From Parasegetibacter sp. NRK P23 (lineage in GTDB: Bacteria > Bacteroidota > Bacteroidia > Chitinophagales > Chitinophagaceae): DNA of 64,000 bases. Below are positions 42,870 to 55,649 of this stretch, one piece after another. The notes under the pieces are model-generated. The model searched no databases. It worked only from the letters and a program-made list of their open reading frames with translations, and had not been told where the DNA came from. A program made the position numbers and the translations under genes. The stretch spans positions 1,305,889 through 1,369,888 of the forward strand of contig NZ_JAMDLG010000001.1 of NCBI RefSeq assembly GCF_023721715.1, written 5' to 3'. How positions within the stretch are numbered: position 1 is the first letter of the stretch; the number at the start of each line of letters is the position of its first letter.

Positions 42870-42943
42870 GGATCTTTAGCTCAGTTGGTTAGAGCATCTG
42901 ACTCATAATCAGAGGGTCGCTGGTTCGAGCCCGGCAAGATCCA
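42870..42943 (+). tRNA. tRNA with CAT anticodon (elongator Met, or Ile2 if lysidine-modified)
   Basis: 74 bases. The acceptor stem GGATCTT/AAGATCC, D-arm AGCTCAGTTGGTTAGAGC, anticodon stem TCTGA/TCAGA around loop CTCATAA, and T-arm GCTGG-TTCGAGC-CCGGC are all intact. The G1:C72 pair and the lack of a GGG anticodon stem exclude the initiator. The T-arm and variable region (GGTCGCTGG) resemble bacterial Ile2 as much as Met, so the amino acid is uncertain. CCA is not encoded. The A+T-rich accessory region begins just downstream. Confidence 0.92.
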
Positions 42944-43687: not shown

Positions 43688-45037
43688 TTATTGACGTGAT
43701 GGAAAAAGTCGAGCTATTTTTTCTAACAACCTTGAATTTTCTGCAATAATCTCTCCAGTTAGTGAAAGGCCGCTCTTATATTGCACTGAATATCCAAAAC
43801 TCGTCTTTAAACCGTTTGTTAAGGATACTTTAGCAAGATACCCTGAATCTGTTGCCACATTACTTACATATGTAATCTCACCTTCTATTTTCCCGTACTG
43901 CTGATAAGGATAAGCATCAACCTTGAATAATACCTTTTGCCCAACTTTTACTTTTCCAAAATTGTATTGCGCAAGTATCATTTCAATAAACTTAGGGCCG
44001 TTTTGTGGTTCAACATAAAAAATCTTCTGCCCCGCAACAAATTCTTGCTGCTCTTCAAAAAAGCTCGCATATGCTAGCCGGCCATTAATTGGGGCTTTCA
44101 ATAAGTATAAGTATTCCCATTTTTCGACTTCGGAGCGCATAGACTGAACTGCCTGAATAAATAGGCTTTTTTGAGTCGTTAGCGCAATGTCGAGTTCATA
44201 AATTTCCTTTGTTTTATCATTTATCCTTGCTTCATTAAGTAGAAGAGAAGACTTAATTTGAGGAAGTGAAAGTTGCTTATTAATAAATTTGCTTTCCTCA
44301 GCCCTTACCTCCTCTGGAGACAGAACTTTGTCCTTTAAAAGGGATAATTTGGATTCAAATGTTTTGTTGTTTAATGCGATATCTTTTTCGATTAAATTTT
44401 CTTGTACGGCCAAGTTTCTCGATAGATGTTTTAGAATTACCAAATCTTGCGTTAACATCTTTCTCTTTTGTTGATAATATCCTTTACCTATAAAATCTTT
44501 AAACTCGAGAAAAACTTGCATAAATGTTTGAAAGGAAGCTTGCAGCTCCCCTAGACCGCCAATAAACTCAATGTTATTGTATTTATCAAAGTATTGTAAA
44601 ACATCTCTATAATCGCCAGAAGCCAAAAGTTTGGTGATTGTGTCAAGTTGCGCTTTAATCAAGTTCACTGCGGTGGGACTAGCAACACTTTCGATATGCG
44701 CTAACACATCTCCCTGCCCAACCTGATCTAAATGACTAAAATATAACCTGTTAACTTTTCCTGATTTTCTTGCAATGATTACCTTTTCGCTGTTGGCGCT
44801 TGAAAGCCGAGCTTTGGCAACTATGATCTCTGGATATCTTATCCACCAAGACATAGCAACTAAACATAAGACTAACCCGATAATGATATAAATTCCCTTT
44901 TTGATTAGAAACGATGGACTGCTATGTAGAAATGTATTTACATCTTCACTTCTCTCGCTGTACACGTCAAATAAATCCTTCTTATCATTTGTCGATAAAA
45001 TATTTTTAATTTCCAAGTTCAAGCTGATTTTTGACAA
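43688..45037 (-). CDS. HlyD-family membrane fusion (adaptor) protein of the peptide exporter
   Basis: 449 residues if started at TTG 45037; other TTG codons at 45022 and 45016 are possible and no ATG is suitable, so the start is uncertain. One N-terminal membrane helix (IYIIIGLVLCLVAMSWWI) is followed by a beta-barrel/lipoyl half (VNRLYFSHLDQVGQGDVLAHIES). A long coiled-coil region (about 125-310) precedes the second lipoyl half and C-terminal barrel (GRLAYASFFEEQQEFVAGQKIF). It links the ABC exporter to an outer-membrane channel. The gene overlaps the end of the exporter gene, a sign of translational coupling. Confidence 0.88.
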   Translation of the reverse strand: MSKISLNLEIKNILSTNDKKDLFDVYSERSEDVNTFLHSSPSFLIKKGIYIIIGLVLCLVAMSWWIRYPEIIVAKARLSSANSEKVIIARKSGKVNRLYFSHLDQVGQGDVLAHIESVASPTAVNLIKAQLDTITKLLASGDYRDVLQYFDKYNNIEFIGGLGELQASFQTFMQVFLEFKDFIGKGYYQQKRKMLTQDLVILKHLSRNLAVQENLIEKDIALNNKTFESKLSLLKDKVLSPEEVRAEESKFINKQLSLPQIKSSLLLNEARINDKTKEIYELDIALTTQKSLFIQAVQSMRSEVEKWEYLYLLKAPINGRLAYASFFEEQQEFVAGQKIFYVEPQNGPKFIEMILAQYNFGKVKVGQKVLFKVDAYPYQQYGKIEGEITYVSNVATDSGYLAKVSLTNGLKTSFGYSVQYKSGLSLTGEIIAENSRLLEKIARLFPSRQ

Positions 45038-47195
45038 GGTTATAATAGTAGCCTTTCCTCAAAGAAAGGTCTGTGTGAGTTCCATATTCCACCAGGCGCC
45101 CTTGATGAAGCACCACAATGTAGTCGGCATTTTTTACTGTACTTAGCCGATGTGCGACAACAAGCACAGTTCTGTTTTGAAAAAATGATTGAAGGTTCTC
45201 CATTATCATTTTTTCATTCTTTGCATCTAAAGCATTTGTTGCCTCATCAAAAAATAAAAAATCAGGATTTTTATAAATAGCTCTGGCAATTAAAATCCGC
45301 TGCTTTTGTCCTTGGCTTAAACCAACGCCCTCCGCCCCTATTTTTGTCTTTAAACCCAACGGAAGCGATTCAACGAAGTCTAAAATATTTGCTATTCTAC
45401 AGGCATCCATTACTTTCTGCTCATCCATCTGTATTGGCTGCATCGCAATATTATTGGCAATAGTATCATTAAAAATAAATCCGTCTTGTAAAACACAACT
45501 ACATGACGCTCGCCATTGCGCTGGGCTAACTGCATTGAAATCCGTATTGGCTACCTTTATCTCACCTGAGTAGTCGGTATAGAATTTGAGCAAAATTTTT
45601 AATAGCGTTGTTTTTCCGCTACCGCTCATTCCGACAATGGCTGTAGTTTTCTTTTCTGGAATAATGAGATCAATATCGGAAAGTACTGGTGTATTTCCTG
45701 CACCAGGGTACGTAAATGTAAACTTACGTAAACAAATGTCTTTCGATGTCTGAACATCAAAATGTTTGAAGCCTTTATTCTCTTCTGGTTCCAGCACATG
45801 AACTTCATTTAATCTTTCTAAAGAAAGCTTTGTATCCTGAGCTTGTTGAACGAATGAAATCAGCTGTTCAACCGGGCCTGAAAGCTGCCCTATAATATAT
45901 TCTATCGCAAGCATAGATCCTAAAGTCAACTCACCGTTTATTACGGCTCTTGCAGACAAAAACAGGATGATGATGTTTTTAGTTTGATTTATAAAAAATG
46001 CACCGGCTTGTTGATATTGGTTTATTGATAGGCTCTTAAAATCAAGCTTGAATATTGAAACCTGTAACTTTTCCCACTCCCATCTCCTATATTTGGCGCT
46101 GTCGTAAATCCGTATTTCCTGCATCCCTTGAATTAGCTGTATAGTTGAAGTATTCTCTCGACTTTGAAGGGAAAACTTTTTGTAATCAATTTTTCTTCGT
46201 TGGCTTAAAAACAATCTAACCCAAAAAAAATATGCTAATGTCCCAATAAAGAAAACAGCAAATACGGAAGAGGAATAAAAAAGAAGAACAAATGAAAATA
46301 ATACTAAATTGATGATAGAGAATATAATATTTAATGAGCCCGTCGTAAGGAACTGCTGAATTCTACCGTGATCATGTATGCGTTGAAGAATATCTCCTGT
46401 TTTTTTTGTATCAAAATATGATAAAGGAAGATTCATTAATTTTATCCAAAAATCCGAAAGAATCGAGATATTTATCCTACTTCCTATGAATAGTAGAATA
46501 TGACCTCTAATAAACTCTGTAGTAGCTTTCCCTGCAAGTAAGAATAATTGGGCAAACAAAATCATTGCTACATATGAGAGATCTTTCGTTGCTATGCCTA
46601 CGTCAACAATACTTTGTGTAAGAAATGGGAGTATAACTTGAAATAATGAGATTAGTATTAGACTTATGAATAATTGCAGAAAAAATCGCTTGTGCTTTAT
46701 GAGATGACTAGATAAAAATTTCCATCCAATTTTTTTTTGTGTATTTTCTTCTTCTCCGTATAATCGAAAATCATGAGAAGGCTCTAGCAAAAGAACAAGC
46801 CCATCCGAGTTATGATTGTCATGACCTATCCACTTTGAAGTAAACTCGTTTTTTTCATATTTTATAATGCCTTGAGCAGGGTCTGCTACATATATTTTAT
46901 GACGTGTAGAAGCAGGTATTACAACTACAAAATGCTTCTGCTCCCAATGAATAATAGCTGGCAAAGGAGCTTTTTCAATTAAATCATTGAATGATAATTT
47001 AACCCCTGAAGTTCGGATACCATTCATTTCCGCCGCATCGGCAAGTCCGAGAAAAGAGGTTCCTTCTCTTGTTGTTTGAGTCGCATTTCTCAGACTTTCG
47101 ATAGAGATTTCTTTTCCGTAAAATTTGGCTACCATTTTTAAACATGTAGCCCCGCAATCCATTTCATTGGCTTGCTTATAAAAAGGGAAGCGCAT
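45006..47195 (-). CDS. Peptidase-containing ABC transporter (C39 peptidase, LanT/PCAT type)
   Basis: 729 residues. The N-terminal C39 cysteine peptidase (1-145) keeps the catalytic Cys in MDCGATCLKM, the His in WEQKHFVVV and the Asp in ADPAQG. Six membrane helices follow (about 165-440). The ATPase domain has Walker A GMSGSGKTTLL, signature LSQGQKQRILIAR, Walker B FLFFDEATNALD and the His-loop VAHRL. It cleaves double-glycine leaders and exports the mature peptide. Its substrate is very probably the peptide encoded at 49984-50193. It starts directly after the VKOR-fusion stop codon. Confidence 0.95.
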   Translation of the reverse strand: MRFPFYKQANEMDCGATCLKMVAKFYGKEISIESLRNATQTTREGTSFLGLADAAEMNGIRTSGVKLSFNDLIEKAPLPAIIHWEQKHFVVVIPASTRHKIYVADPAQGIIKYEKNEFTSKWIGHDNHNSDGLVLLLEPSHDFRLYGEEENTQKKIGWKFLSSHLIKHKRFFLQLFISLILISLFQVILPFLTQSIVDVGIATKDLSYVAMILFAQLFLLAGKATTEFIRGHILLFIGSRINISILSDFWIKLMNLPLSYFDTKKTGDILQRIHDHGRIQQFLTTGSLNIIFSIINLVLFSFVLLFYSSSVFAVFFIGTLAYFFWVRLFLSQRRKIDYKKFSLQSRENTSTIQLIQGMQEIRIYDSAKYRRWEWEKLQVSIFKLDFKSLSINQYQQAGAFFINQTKNIIILFLSARAVINGELTLGSMLAIEYIIGQLSGPVEQLISFVQQAQDTKLSLERLNEVHVLEPEENKGFKHFDVQTSKDICLRKFTFTYPGAGNTPVLSDIDLIIPEKKTTAIVGMSGSGKTTLLKILLKFYTDYSGEIKVANTDFNAVSPAQWRASCSCVLQDGFIFNDTIANNIAMQPIQMDEQKVMDACRIANILDFVESLPLGLKTKIGAEGVGLSQGQKQRILIARAIYKNPDFLFFDEATNALDAKNEKMIMENLQSFFQNRTVLVVAHRLSTVKNADYIVVLHQGRLVEYGTHTDLSLRKGYYYNLVKNQLELGN

Positions 47196-48803
47196 CTAAA
47201 AAGTGGTATTTCTTATCTCGTTATCAATAGCATATTCGGGAGTACTTTCCCCTTCACAAAGTTCGAGAAGAAAGAACATGAGATCGTCTCTATCAAACTC
47301 AGTAGGAAACGGGTGACCGTCAATTATTAACGTTGGAGTAAAAAAGATGTCTTGCTCTAAACAGAAATCACGTTGCTCAATCAGTATATCATCAGACGTA
47401 TAGTCTTTGGAACTTCGGGTAATTTCAATGAGCTTTTTATCTAATTCACTTTTCTTTAAACTCATAAATCGAAGGTATTCATCATGAAAAACCTCAAAAC
47501 CATTCTTGTGGAAGAATTGATGAAAGTATCTTGCAATGTCTGATTGACGAGAGTTTATATCATTGTTGAAGATGATATGTATGTCCAGGTCTTCTTTTAC
47601 TAACTCATACACTTTGTTTATATCTTTGTGTACCTGATAACAGTGACCGCAAAATGGACTGGTTACTATTGTCAGCCGGTGTTTGGATTTTGAGCTTTTA
47701 TAAATAATTGATTTTTCCGTTATAGGGACAGGAGCCCGCTCATTGGACTTTAAAGCATAATCAAATAGTTTGATGCTTCTTGATTGTTTTATCTTTCGTC
47801 TAAGCTTCTTCTCAGTGTTAAGTGAAGCAAGGATATGCTTTTTGACCTCTATCCAAGTAAAGAGAATTAGAACGTTTACCAAACTGAAAGCTAAAAACTG
47901 ATAGATGGAGATATAAAAGCTTAAACTTCTAGAAAGGGAGTAAAATACATATGTTTGAATATATAGAATTATGATAATTGATAGGCATAGTGTACACCAT
48001 TTCTTTTCAACCTTCCATTGATAGTATATTGAAAGAGTGCTAATTGGTATTGATAGCCAAATAAAGGCCCTATAATATGAAATTAGTGTTGTTATTGGTG
48101 TTTCTAGTGAATAAAAAAGTAGTATTAGTTGTGCTGTAAAAAAGACAATCGCTAAATCAGAGAATGGAAGTATCTCAAATACTTTCCATTTCTGAGATTT
48201 TACTACAGATGAGCAGTCTGATGTTATACTTATTTTGCAGAGGCTAGATACAATTCCAGATTTTCCTATTGTTTGTCTGAAGGTTTCAATTGCCAAAATA
48301 AGGCCTATTGAAGAAGTAACAATTAATATATATGCACTTGCACTATAGCTGCCAATCGCTAACAAATAAATTGATACTATTGCAATTAGTAAAGTACTTA
48401 TTCTTTTAATAGACCAATTAAGACCAGCGCCTTTTGTCGTTGCTTTATCCTCTTCAATAATTAAAACGACTTCTTCGAAGACCTTTTTAAACGTTTCTTC
48501 CGAAAGTTTTTCATTTTCTATTTGAAAGATTTTGTCAGTTCTTTTCACTGAACAGAGTTTTGAATCTCCGTCCACTTGAATAAGTGCGATAAATTCAGGA
48601 GGGAGCTCTAAGACAAACTTTTTTTCTAAGCGCAGGGTGGAGTGAAGAATACCAAAGAAAGTTAATGCATCGCTAAAACACAAAATACTCGGGTAGTTAG
48701 GGTGTCCGATGACTTGATTTCTAAATTCGATCTCGTCAACTTTCATGCCAGCATGAGATAGAAATGACAGTACAGAATCTGTACCGGTTTGTTTCAAATT
48801 CAT
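47196..48803 (-). CDS. VKOR-thioredoxin fusion with C39-like N-terminal domain
   Basis: 535 residues. Residues about 1-120 resemble a C39 peptidase fold (HPNYPSILCFSDALTFFGI) but lack the N-terminal catalytic cysteine. Membrane helices follow (about 130-330) carrying the vitamin K epoxide reductase cysteines: the CKISITSDC loop pair and the CTLC active site (KKWCTLCL). The C-terminal periplasmic thioredoxin-like domain has SPFCGHCYQ and the cis-proline region FFTPTLIIDG. VKOR plus thioredoxin forms disulfide bonds using quinones. Together with the six-cysteine peptide gene this indicates oxidative folding of the exported product. Confidence 0.9.
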   Translation of the reverse strand: MNLKQTGTDSVLSFLSHAGMKVDEIEFRNQVIGHPNYPSILCFSDALTFFGILHSTLRLEKKFVLELPPEFIALIQVDGDSKLCSVKRTDKIFQIENEKLSEETFKKVFEEVVLIIEEDKATTKGAGLNWSIKRISTLLIAIVSIYLLAIGSYSASAYILIVTSSIGLILAIETFRQTIGKSGIVSSLCKISITSDCSSVVKSQKWKVFEILPFSDLAIVFFTAQLILLFYSLETPITTLISYYRAFIWLSIPISTLSIYYQWKVEKKWCTLCLSIIIILYIQTYVFYSLSRSLSFYISIYQFLAFSLVNVLILFTWIEVKKHILASLNTEKKLRRKIKQSRSIKLFDYALKSNERAPVPITEKSIIYKSSKSKHRLTIVTSPFCGHCYQVHKDINKVYELVKEDLDIHIIFNNDINSRQSDIARYFHQFFHKNGFEVFHDEYLRFMSLKKSELDKKLIEITRSSKDYTSDDILIEQRDFCLEQDIFFTPTLIIDGHPFPTEFDRDDLMFFLLELCEGESTPEYAIDNEIRNTTF

Positions 48804-48829
48804 AAGTAAGGTTAAATCGATAAAGATTA

Positions 48830-49894
48830 TTAATCCAAAAATTCCTTCAACTTTTTAATATCAACATCGCGACCAATAATTTCACCTTTAGCATCAATTA
48901 AAATATTACTCGGGTATTTATAAATTATTCCATATTTCCTAAAGCTCTCGGCATTGGCATCCCATAAGTTTATCCACGGTAAATCCATGCTATTTAACAC
49001 TGCACAAGCTTCTTCCGTTACTCCTTCTTCGTCCGTATTGATACTCAGAAAGTCCACAATATTTGATAGGTCGGTGAACTGGGTTTCTTTAATTTCTTTC
49101 ATTTTGGCATAACAGGGTTTGCACCCTGTAAACCAAAATTCTATTAGCAGGTTTTTTTTTTGTTTCTTTGGATCAATGTTTATTTGGTTGCTGGCAGAAT
49201 CCTTTAAAGTGAGCGGAATAAATTTATGCGAAGGAAAATATTGACTTTGGAAATATCTATAAGCTTTAGTTTTTTGAATCATCTTATCAAAGTGCGCTAA
49301 GATTGTTTTTGAAGATGGCTTTAAATCGTAATTAAACACTTGATTAATAATAAGGTATAGTGCAACAAATGATTGCTTGTGATGACTAACATAATTAGAA
49401 AATAGCTCTTTGTCTATTTCGACATCCGCATTTTTTTCCTTTATACCTTTAAGGAATTCGCGATACTCATTTTCAATTCTCGTTGATGGCCTATTATTGA
49501 TTATAAGTTCATTATTAACAAGGGAAATTTCTAAACTTTGCGATCCTGGCTCAATGAACAGTAATTCATTAATGCTGAGTGTGTCAACTCCACCAAATAT
49601 CCTAAACGCAGTTGGGTATAATATTTCTCCAGAGAAAACAAATATGGTGTCACCAAAAGTAGATTTTGAAATTTCTTTCTTAGCAGCTTTGTATCCTTCT
49701 AAGAAAAATGATTCCCCCAGGCGGAGATCTATTTTAAGCAGAGATTTATTTGAAACTCGGAGCGTGAATTTCTGATATTTTTGGGCGATAGTAGGGGTGT
49801 TAAGAAGAAGAATAAGTATTAAAGTAAAGAATATGGCTTGACGTATTTCTTTGTATCTATTTCTTTTGTTGTCAAATGACGCGATCCTAATCAT
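48830..49894 (-). CDS. TlpA/ResA-like thiol-disulfide oxidoreductase
   Basis: 354 residues. One N-terminal hydrophobic segment (AIFFTLILILLLNTPTIAQ) exports it. The middle (about 45-240) is a DUF4369-like domain without recognised motifs. The C-terminal thioredoxin domain has the active site TGCKPCYAKM, then FLSINTDEEGV and the cis-proline region YKYPSNILIDAKGEIIG. TlpA-type proteins reduce or isomerise disulfides in the periplasm. It sits between the precursor peptide and the VKOR fusion and probably proofreads disulfides in the peptide or keeps it reduced for export. Confidence 0.85.
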   Translation of the reverse strand: MIRIASFDNKRNRYKEIRQAIFFTLILILLLNTPTIAQKYQKFTLRVSNKSLLKIDLRLGESFFLEGYKAAKKEISKSTFGDTIFVFSGEILYPTAFRIFGGVDTLSINELLFIEPGSQSLEISLVNNELIINNRPSTRIENEYREFLKGIKEKNADVEIDKELFSNYVSHHKQSFVALYLIINQVFNYDLKPSSKTILAHFDKMIQKTKAYRYFQSQYFPSHKFIPLTLKDSASNQINIDPKKQKKNLLIEFWFTGCKPCYAKMKEIKETQFTDLSNIVDFLSINTDEEGVTEEACAVLNSMDLPWINLWDANAESFRKYGIIYKYPSNILIDAKGEIIGRDVDIKKLKEFLD

Positions 49895-49983
49895 TATTTT
49901 ACCACATTTTGATTAAGACAACAGTATCTCAGCGATGTTTCTGGTATCTGCAGGACAGAATCTCTGTCCTGCAGAAAAGGAGT

Positions 49984-50193
49984 TTACCAAGCGCTACATC
50001 CGGTGTTACCGTTCTTGCATTGCTTAGTACACTTTCCTTTGTTTACTTGTTGACACTCCCAGTCGGCAGTGCATCCCATGCAGCCGAAATCTTCATCTCT
50101 TCCGGGGGTAAGACCATCGCCGCCTTTAATTGTTTTCATCTCACTTCTTGTAAGGCTCGATGCAAAGGAATTCAACTTAACTGTTTTTTTCAT
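49984..50193 (-). CDS. Double-glycine-leader precursor of a six-cysteine secreted peptide
   Basis: 69 residues. The leader (1-25) begins MKKTVKLNSFASSLTRSEMK and ends TIKGG, the form of Bacteroidota GG-leader natural-product precursors (TIGR04149-like). Cleavage after GG leaves 44 residues beginning DGLTPGRDEDFGC, with six cysteines, enough for three disulfides, and no serine/threonine density typical of lanthipeptides. No lanthionine or radical-SAM enzyme is nearby. It is the first gene of a five-gene minus-strand cluster ending in a C39 exporter and adaptor. Target or activity (bacteriocin, signal, other) is unknown, and no immunity gene is obvious. Confidence 0.85.
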   Translation of the reverse strand: MKKTVKLNSFASSLTRSEMKTIKGGDGLTPGRDEDFGCMGCTADWECQQVNKGKCTKQCKNGNTGCSAW

Positions 50194-50552: not shown

Positions 50553-50941
50553 TTACCGTTTTTTTATTTCATTCCTCCGAAGCCCTCCCAACTCCACATA
50601 GCTGACCACTATTTCGACCCTTCTGTTTTTTGCTCTGTTTTCCGGAGTGTCATTCAATGCCGCCGGTAATTTATTGCCGTAGCCAATGGTAACAACATGC
50701 TCTTTTAACTGTGGCAGTTCGGAAATGAGATAGGCGGCAACCGATTCGGCCCGCTTCAAAGAAAGCACCTTGTTTAAAGTATCGGTGCCGTTATACACTT
50801 ATTCCGATCCATTAGATGCTGTTCTTTCGTTGCGCTATTCAACAACATTAATCTCTTCTTCCTTTCACAATCGCCACCAGAAAACAAGCCGCCAATAACC
50901 ACAGCCCCGGTAATGCACAAGATAAAATTTGCTTTCCGCAT
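50553..50941 (-). pseudogene. Remnant of an OmpA-domain protein
   Basis: The 3' part (50798 to 50553) encodes the second half of an OmpA peptidoglycan-binding domain: TLNKVLSLKRAESVAAYLI, TIGYGNKLPAALND, ENRAKNRRVEIVV. A signal-anchor-like N-terminus (MRKANFILCITGAVVIGGLF, from about 50941) lies in another frame and stops near 50774. The first half of the OmpA domain is missing, so an internal deletion plus frameshift has broken the gene. Confidence 0.6.
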
Positions 50942-54932: not shown

Positions 54933-55649
54933 TCACTTAGAACATTGAGTTGCATTACAACCGCAAGCAGCTGCTATGAGAAGCATCACTTGTGGTTGTG
55001 TATCAACAGCTAAGCAAGACCAAAAGCCATCGCAAAATTCATCTTTTTCCGCTTTGTAACAATTCGAAAAACTTTCACCAGGTTCTCTTTGGCAAAAGCC
55101 AGTTCCGCCATGATTTCCCTGGCAGTCCTTCACCTGGATGATTCTATATTCAGCGTCATTATAACCAAGTTGTGTAAAGAATTGAATACCATTTTCAACA
55201 TCAATTAAAATCGCATCGCTATTATTGGTGATTACGATTTGTCCGCTGTTCTGATCAGTAATTTTTCGTCCAAAAAGGAATTCATTCGTTATCTGAAAAG
55301 CTCCTTTTGAAAAATAGCCTTTTACAGCATAATATTTTTCAGGGGTTTCTTCGAAACGCATCATGGCAACTGTTATTCCTTCATTTTTATTTTCAAAAAG
55401 CCTGATAGATTTTTTTTGAATTTTGGAAGCAATTCTACTGTAGACCCCGGTATAACCCGAAAGAGAAGAAAATATTACATCACTTTGCGATTGGCTTGGG
55501 GCAACATCGAAGGCGGATAATCCATAAGCCACCTTCAATGAGCTAATTAATTGAGCATCTTTTTCATTGTCGAAGGTGGCGATCCCCTTTTGTTCTTTCT
55601 TACAGGAGACCAATGAAATAGCTAGAACGGCAATTAAAAAATTTTTCAT
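54933..55649 (-). CDS. Lipoprotein with cysteine-rich C-terminus
   Basis: 238 residues. Lipobox AISLVSCKK gives a lipid-anchored protein. Residues about 25-170 are a mixed domain of unknown function. The last 65 residues hold eight cysteines (CQGNHGGTGFC, NCYKAEKDEFCDGFWSC, ACGCNATQC) around a hydrophobic stretch VMLLIAAA, which looks like a separate disulfide-bonded or bacteriocin-like module. It has its own -7 box and lies just after an HTH gene, which may control it. Function unknown. Confidence 0.75.
   Translation of the reverse strand: MKNFLIAVLAISLVSCKKEQKGIATFDNEKDAQLISSLKVAYGLSAFDVAPSQSQSDVIFSSLSGYTGVYSRIASKIQKKSIRLFENKNEGITVAMMRFEETPEKYYAVKGYFSKGAFQITNEFLFGRKITDQNSGQIVITNNSDAILIDVENGIQFFTQLGYNDAEYRIIQVKDCQGNHGGTGFCQREPGESFSNCYKAEKDEFCDGFWSCLAVDTQPQVMLLIAAACGCNATQCSK

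Follow-up and report, generated by a model that had tools for sequence, protein, structure and literature searches.

What do five consecutive minus-strand genes in the genome of Parasegetibacter sp. NRK P23 make together? The genes lie in a stretch of 64,000 nt (contig NZ_JAMDLG010000001.1, positions 1,305,889 to 1,369,888; hereafter the window, whose numbering is used for this locus) and encode, in this order, a precursor peptide, a TlpA-like thioredoxin, a fusion protein with a VKOR domain, a C39-peptidase ABC exporter and an HlyD-type adaptor. A sequence-only reading of the window had proposed that the cluster is dedicated to the oxidative folding and export of a single secreted peptide. 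All five open reading frames (ORFs) were found at the coordinates it gave, with domains backed by Pfam and profile searches; the VKOR, Redoxin, Peptidase_C39, ABC and HlyD_3 domains scored above their Pfam cut-offs. The proposal was supported, and the five cluster genes include no lanthionine or radical-SAM enzyme. We consider it likely that the cluster is a dedicated line for making a disulfide-rich secreted peptide.

The precursor gene (49984..50193, minus strand) encodes 69 aa, divided after a double glycine (GG) into a 25-aa leader, MKKTVKLNSFASSLTRSEMKTIKGG, and a 44-aa core, DGLTPGRDEDFGCMGCTADWECQQVNKGKCTKQCKNGNTGCSAW, whose six cysteines are spaced 2-5-7-3-6. The leader reached the Pfam family ComC exactly at its cut-off (20.4 bits) and resembles the leaders of precursors from related loci. 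Two other models scored below their cut-offs: NF047798, for a Chryseobacterium bacteriocin-like leader, matched the leader only (19.4 bits, cut-off 23.5 bits), and TIGR04149, for radical-SAM-modified GG peptides, gave 13.4 bits on the precursor (curated cut-off 25 bits). The YGNGVxC motif of class IIa bacteriocins is absent from the core, a PDB sequence search with the core returned zero matches, and cores of similar cysteine spacing aligned poorly to it. The gap between the precursor and TlpA genes holds an RNA hairpin (49948..49974, minus strand), a 12-bp perfect inverted repeat with a 3-nt loop and no T run, with a minimum free energy of -26.8 kcal/mol (z -5.8 against shuffles). It is probably a 3' stabiliser or an attenuator that would set an excess of precursor.

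Export is provided for by two genes, which overlap by 32 nt in a cluster where all five ORFs are co-directional and tightly packed or overlapping. The exporter (45006..47195, minus strand) combines an N-terminal C39 domain (Pfam, 121 bits) with ABC domains and is 55-60% identical to the exporters of related loci. Its C39 residues Q8, C14, H88 and D105 are present, and invariant or nearly so in the alignment, so that the peptidase domain is intact and the protein has the Cys, His, Asp and ABC domains of a C39 peptidase exporter (PCAT). The adaptor gene (43688..45037, minus strand) begins with TTG; its product matched Pfam HlyD_3 at 43.2 bits and the NCBIfam type I HlyD model at 84 bits, the latter under its cut-off. 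The genome holds exactly one C39-ABC exporter. No second precursor and no second copy of the cluster were found in this genome, the single one that represents its genus in the comparisons. Elsewhere in the genome, a C39-domain protein of 183 residues (L210, G000:C1:2611065-2611433) stands alone, with no exporter within 1.5 kb.

The fusion protein (47196..48803, minus strand) consists of a C39-like front, a VKOR domain (36.7 bits, Pfam cut-off 27.5) and a DsbA-like thioredoxin domain. VKOR cysteines 189, 197, 270 and 273 and thioredoxin cysteines 385 and 388 (CxxC) are invariant among 34 sequences. The front (48434..48803) is not detected by a Pfam scan. When profiles of 35 fronts and 28 exporter C39 domains were compared with hhalign, the two matched at 98.2% probability (E 5e-14), so the C39-like front that had been claimed is real. 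The alignment starts past the exporters' catalytic DCG motif, and KLCSV stands where the exporters have HFVV; the front therefore lacks the catalytic Cys and His and is C39-like but degenerate and non-catalytic. In the PDB, a profile built from the entire fusion matched VKOR-thioredoxin proteins, the C39 domains of ComA and PCAT1, and DsbA-like proteins. Its AlphaFold2 model (mean predicted local distance difference test (pLDDT) 83.6, predicted template modelling score (pTM) 0.58) was matched by Foldseek to DsbA-like proteins and, over the front, to the peptidase domains of PCAT1 and ComA. With no peptidase Cys or His, the front probably binds leaders rather than cutting them and is a predicted leader-docking domain; inactive C39-like domains that bind substrate occur in other type I exporters. 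The Synechococcus VKOR-thioredoxin protein (PDB 3kp9, 4nv6) is likewise a quinone-coupled disulfide oxidase with a VKOR domain and a C-terminal thioredoxin fold, but it has no C39-like front and is unlinked to a peptide exporter, whereas the window fusion carries about 120 extra N-terminal residues.

Family searches of the genome found no DsbB and no second VKOR; a subthreshold VKOR match elsewhere was rejected as cytochrome bd. Because neither was found, the one quinone-linked disulfide oxidase recognised in this genome, within the families searched, is that of the cluster.

The second thiol enzyme is the TlpA-like thioredoxin (48830..49894, minus strand), which has an N-terminal signal segment, as of a periplasmic protein, and a CKPC active site (Pfam Redoxin, 41.8 bits). 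It is most likely a peptide-specific isomerase or reductase; in related loci, its counterparts lie directly downstream of precursors and are often paired with one precursor each.

Related gene sets were found well beyond this genome. A single-sequence query found fusion relatives in 41 of 296 family genomes, and a profile query found them in 47 of 395 sampled genomes of the phylum, about one in eight; such recurrence argues against a chance set of genes. A further 80 named loci come from Mucilaginibacter, Pedobacter, Chitinophaga, Sediminibacterium, Spirosoma and others, and eight plasmids also carry fusion relatives. The five-gene content is conserved; the order is not, the commonest being VKOR, precursor, TlpA, ABC, HlyD. 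Some loci (L188, L043, L048, L055 and L105) repeat precursor-TlpA cassettes, often with one TlpA behind each precursor, next to a single exporter. On the Emticicia oligotrophica plasmid pEMTOL01, typed as conjugative, VKOR, two six-cysteine precursors, TlpA, ABC, HlyD and TolC stand together (L136), so the system can travel by plasmid.

We searched these loci for precursors with a detector that reads the leader only and is blind to core cysteines, on the VKOR strand and within 8 kb. Among the 107 distinct VKOR-linked precursors, 63 had six cysteines, 29 eight, five four and two ten, and eight had an odd number. Two expectations of the sequence-only reading thus held: an even cysteine number, set beforehand as a check, in 99 of 107 precursors, and no cysteine-free precursor in homologous clusters (0/107). 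When each cysteine-spacing pattern was counted once, 89 of 97 were even. Applied to 16 C39-ABC loci from genomes or stretches that lack VKOR, the same detector found no precursors; in 79 VKOR loci read on the opposite strand it found four, three of them also with six cysteines. A precursor was present at 70 of 120 loci at least, a lower bound because only 1.5 kb of flank was covered at some loci; most loci missed by the detector show a small Cys-rich ORF just past VKOR in a listing made without the strict leader rule. The same Cys-rich precursor pattern was seen in Flavobacteria-like families and in one further class. For 55 of the 107 precursors, a TlpA gene starts at most 700 nt downstream, at a median distance of 84 nt; the TlpA count climbs with the precursor count (Spearman 0.38, p 0.001).

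Together, these parts suggest the following route. The GG leader would dock on the active C39 domain of the exporter and be cleaved off behind the GG. The core of 44 residues would cross the inner membrane by a type I route that uses HlyD together with a TolC from outside the cluster. The membrane fusion would oxidise the core during or just after translocation, its DsbA-like domain donating disulfides, and the VKOR domain would re-oxidise the DsbA-like domain and hand the electrons to quinone. Predicted to lie on the cytoplasmic side, the inactive C39-like front would grip the leader and so couple folding to export, while the TlpA-like protein would correct disulfide pairing. Most probably, the product has three disulfides and acts against, or towards, related bacteria.

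Maturation that is purely oxidative, as had been proposed, does not hold throughout, since some relatives' clusters contain LanC-like or glycosyltransferase genes: plasmids of Parabacteroides distasonis (L132) and Spirosoma oryzicola (L135) combine VKOR and C39-ABC with LanC-like and/or glycosyltransferase genes, which suggests extra modification of the disulfide peptide.

Several points weigh against a dedicated line with a bacteriocin-like product. The disulfides, the cleavage and the activity of the window peptide are predicted ones. With a net charge of -1, its core is slightly acidic, unlike many membrane-active bacteriocins. The window VKOR is only 20-29% identical to its family relatives, and the gene order in the window is atypical. 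Because the 107 precursors include kin, they do not count as 107 independent cases, and no TlpA gene follows directly behind about half of those detected. TlpA-family thioredoxins are also often reductases.

A different use of the product is possible, though less likely: instead of being a bacteriocin, it could serve as a signal or could inhibit enzymes, predators or grazers. The cores of the VKOR-linked precursors are acidic, hydrophilic and highly variable, with a median charge of -2, which would fit such a use, as would the lack of an immunity gene. Knottin-like relatives would fit protease inhibitors. Eighteen precursors show the knottin spacing C-C-CC-C-C, among them L118:2310-2783, L084:11729-12147, L052:3740-4348, L053:7198-8335, L054:13027-13215 and L188:9124-9509. 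All of these but the last belong to loci with a second leader type, ending in AG-S in place of GG at a putative cleavage site. A profile of 13 knottin-spaced cores had 61 PDB matches at E <=10 (best E 3e-8), nearly all of them knottins, in scores that Cys-rich composition inflates; the non-knottin exception was a hydrophobin-like protein (E 0.11). Some members weakly matched Pfam toxin families (best E 0.001), and the knottin-type relatives resemble toxins, trypsin inhibitors and antifungal peptides. The structure model of one knottin-spaced core (mean pLDDT 75.6, pTM 0.44) drew only knottin-type matches from Foldseek, but at E >0.5 and template modelling (TM) scores of 0.4-0.66, so that a knottin fold in this subset of relatives is suggested rather than established. 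The subset has the spacing of inhibitor cystine knots and similarity to them; it shares the six-Cys CC spacing of eukaryotic knottins, which include toxins and inhibitors from animals and plants, and differs from these in bacterial GG-leader export in place of the eukaryotic secretory path. The window peptide does not belong here: its core has no CC pair and found no PDB match, and the cluster has no linked regulator or receptor gene, all of which speaks against a signal or inhibitor in this case.

It is unlikely that the cluster is a bacteroidetocin (class IIf) locus, in which the five-transmembrane protein would be the VKOR homologue and the peptide would kill related Bacteroidota at the outer membrane, where the bacteroidetocin target is BamA (PMC8546649). 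The resemblance is considerable: bacteroidetocin loci, also from Bacteroidota, encode in order a transmembrane protein of unknown function, a GG-leader peptide, a thiol oxidoreductase adjoining the peptide gene, and a C39-ABC exporter; an immunity gene is lacking, and native bacteroidetocins migrate like disulfide-bonded peptides (PMC6671954). The five-transmembrane protein has not been called a VKOR, and we liken it to the multi-transmembrane window fusion by gene order. The peptides differ. Bacteroidetocin leaders are 15-16 aa long against 25 aa here, both ending in GG. Bacteroidetocins are described as having at least two cysteines, usually four, with four at conserved positions in A and B; the window core has six at another spacing. 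Bacteroidetocins A and B are basic and the window core acidic, and HlyD is not in the published set. Because leader length, cysteine number and charge differ, we do not file the window peptide as a bacteroidetocin; by analogy, it may nevertheless work like one, and with the shared gene syntax and no immunity gene the system is partly of a known kind. The sequence-only reading had suggested that self-protection may lie in an unrecognised gene, a proposal weakened by bacteroidetocin producers, which lack an immunity gene and are inhibited by their own product (PMC6671954). That the TlpA-like protein itself gives self-protection, by reducing or binding the cognate peptide in the periplasm, is quite improbable: TlpA genes do multiply with precursors in relatives and no other immunity candidate is at hand, but expression of the bacteroidetocin thiol oxidoreductase conferred no protection, and deleting its gene, like deleting that of the transmembrane protein, attenuated activity (PMC6671954).

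A dedicated folding line is preferred, and dedicated thiol enzymes for bacteriocins are not new in themselves. GG-leader systems had been said to rely usually on general disulfide enzymes; this contrast is weakened by PedC of pediocin PA-1, BlpGst of thermophilin 13 and BdbA of sublancin, dedicated thiol-disulfide oxidoreductases that mature bacteriocin disulfides (PMC4919988), and by the bacteroidetocins. The three systems differ from the window cluster in having Gram-positive producers, in the immunity gene of pediocin and in having no quinone-coupled VKOR fusion in the described sets (PMC4919988). No description of VKOR with C39 or GG-leader peptides, or of bacterial knottins, was found in the literature searched, which mostly did not cover subscription papers. 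New here are the constant partnership with a quinone-coupled fusion, a hypervariable repertoire of precursors with even Cys numbers and the knottin-spaced subset. We are evenly divided on whether the window cluster is one instance of a general Bacteroidota export-coupled oxidative-folding machine, in which a fusion of an inactive C39-like leader dock with VKOR and DsbA domains works alongside peptide-paired TlpA foldases on hypervariable even-Cys mini-proteins, true knottins included.

The surroundings of the cluster bear on its origin. The GC content of the cluster block is 33-37%, compared to 45-55% in most of the flanks. A tRNA gene at 42870-42943 borders the low-GC block; the Rfam scan around the cluster found nothing besides this one tRNA nearby. 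An 81-residue fragment matching the end of an OmpA domain in Pfam (50553-50798, minus strand) borders the cluster and is probably a broken gene at the edge of the block. The low-GC block, bordered by the OmpA-family fragment and the tRNA, suggests that the cluster was acquired from elsewhere. Further out, 4.7 kb upstream of the precursor, lies a predicted lipoprotein gene (54933-55649, minus strand) whose product is Cys-rich in its last ~60 residues and has no family match above cut-off; it was rejected as a component of the system, having no homologue in any VKOR locus.

If the proposed line is correct, it would provide Bacteroidota such as this one, with no usual DsbB route in the genome, with a path of their own that links quinone to peptide disulfides and is dedicated to that task; it may also account for the membrane protein of unknown function that bacteroidetocin loci encode. 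The foldase set would be a bacterial one usable to produce disulfide-rich peptides. Many unannotated, stable, disulfide-rich peptides, some of them knottin-like, would then be expected in soil and aquatic bacteria.

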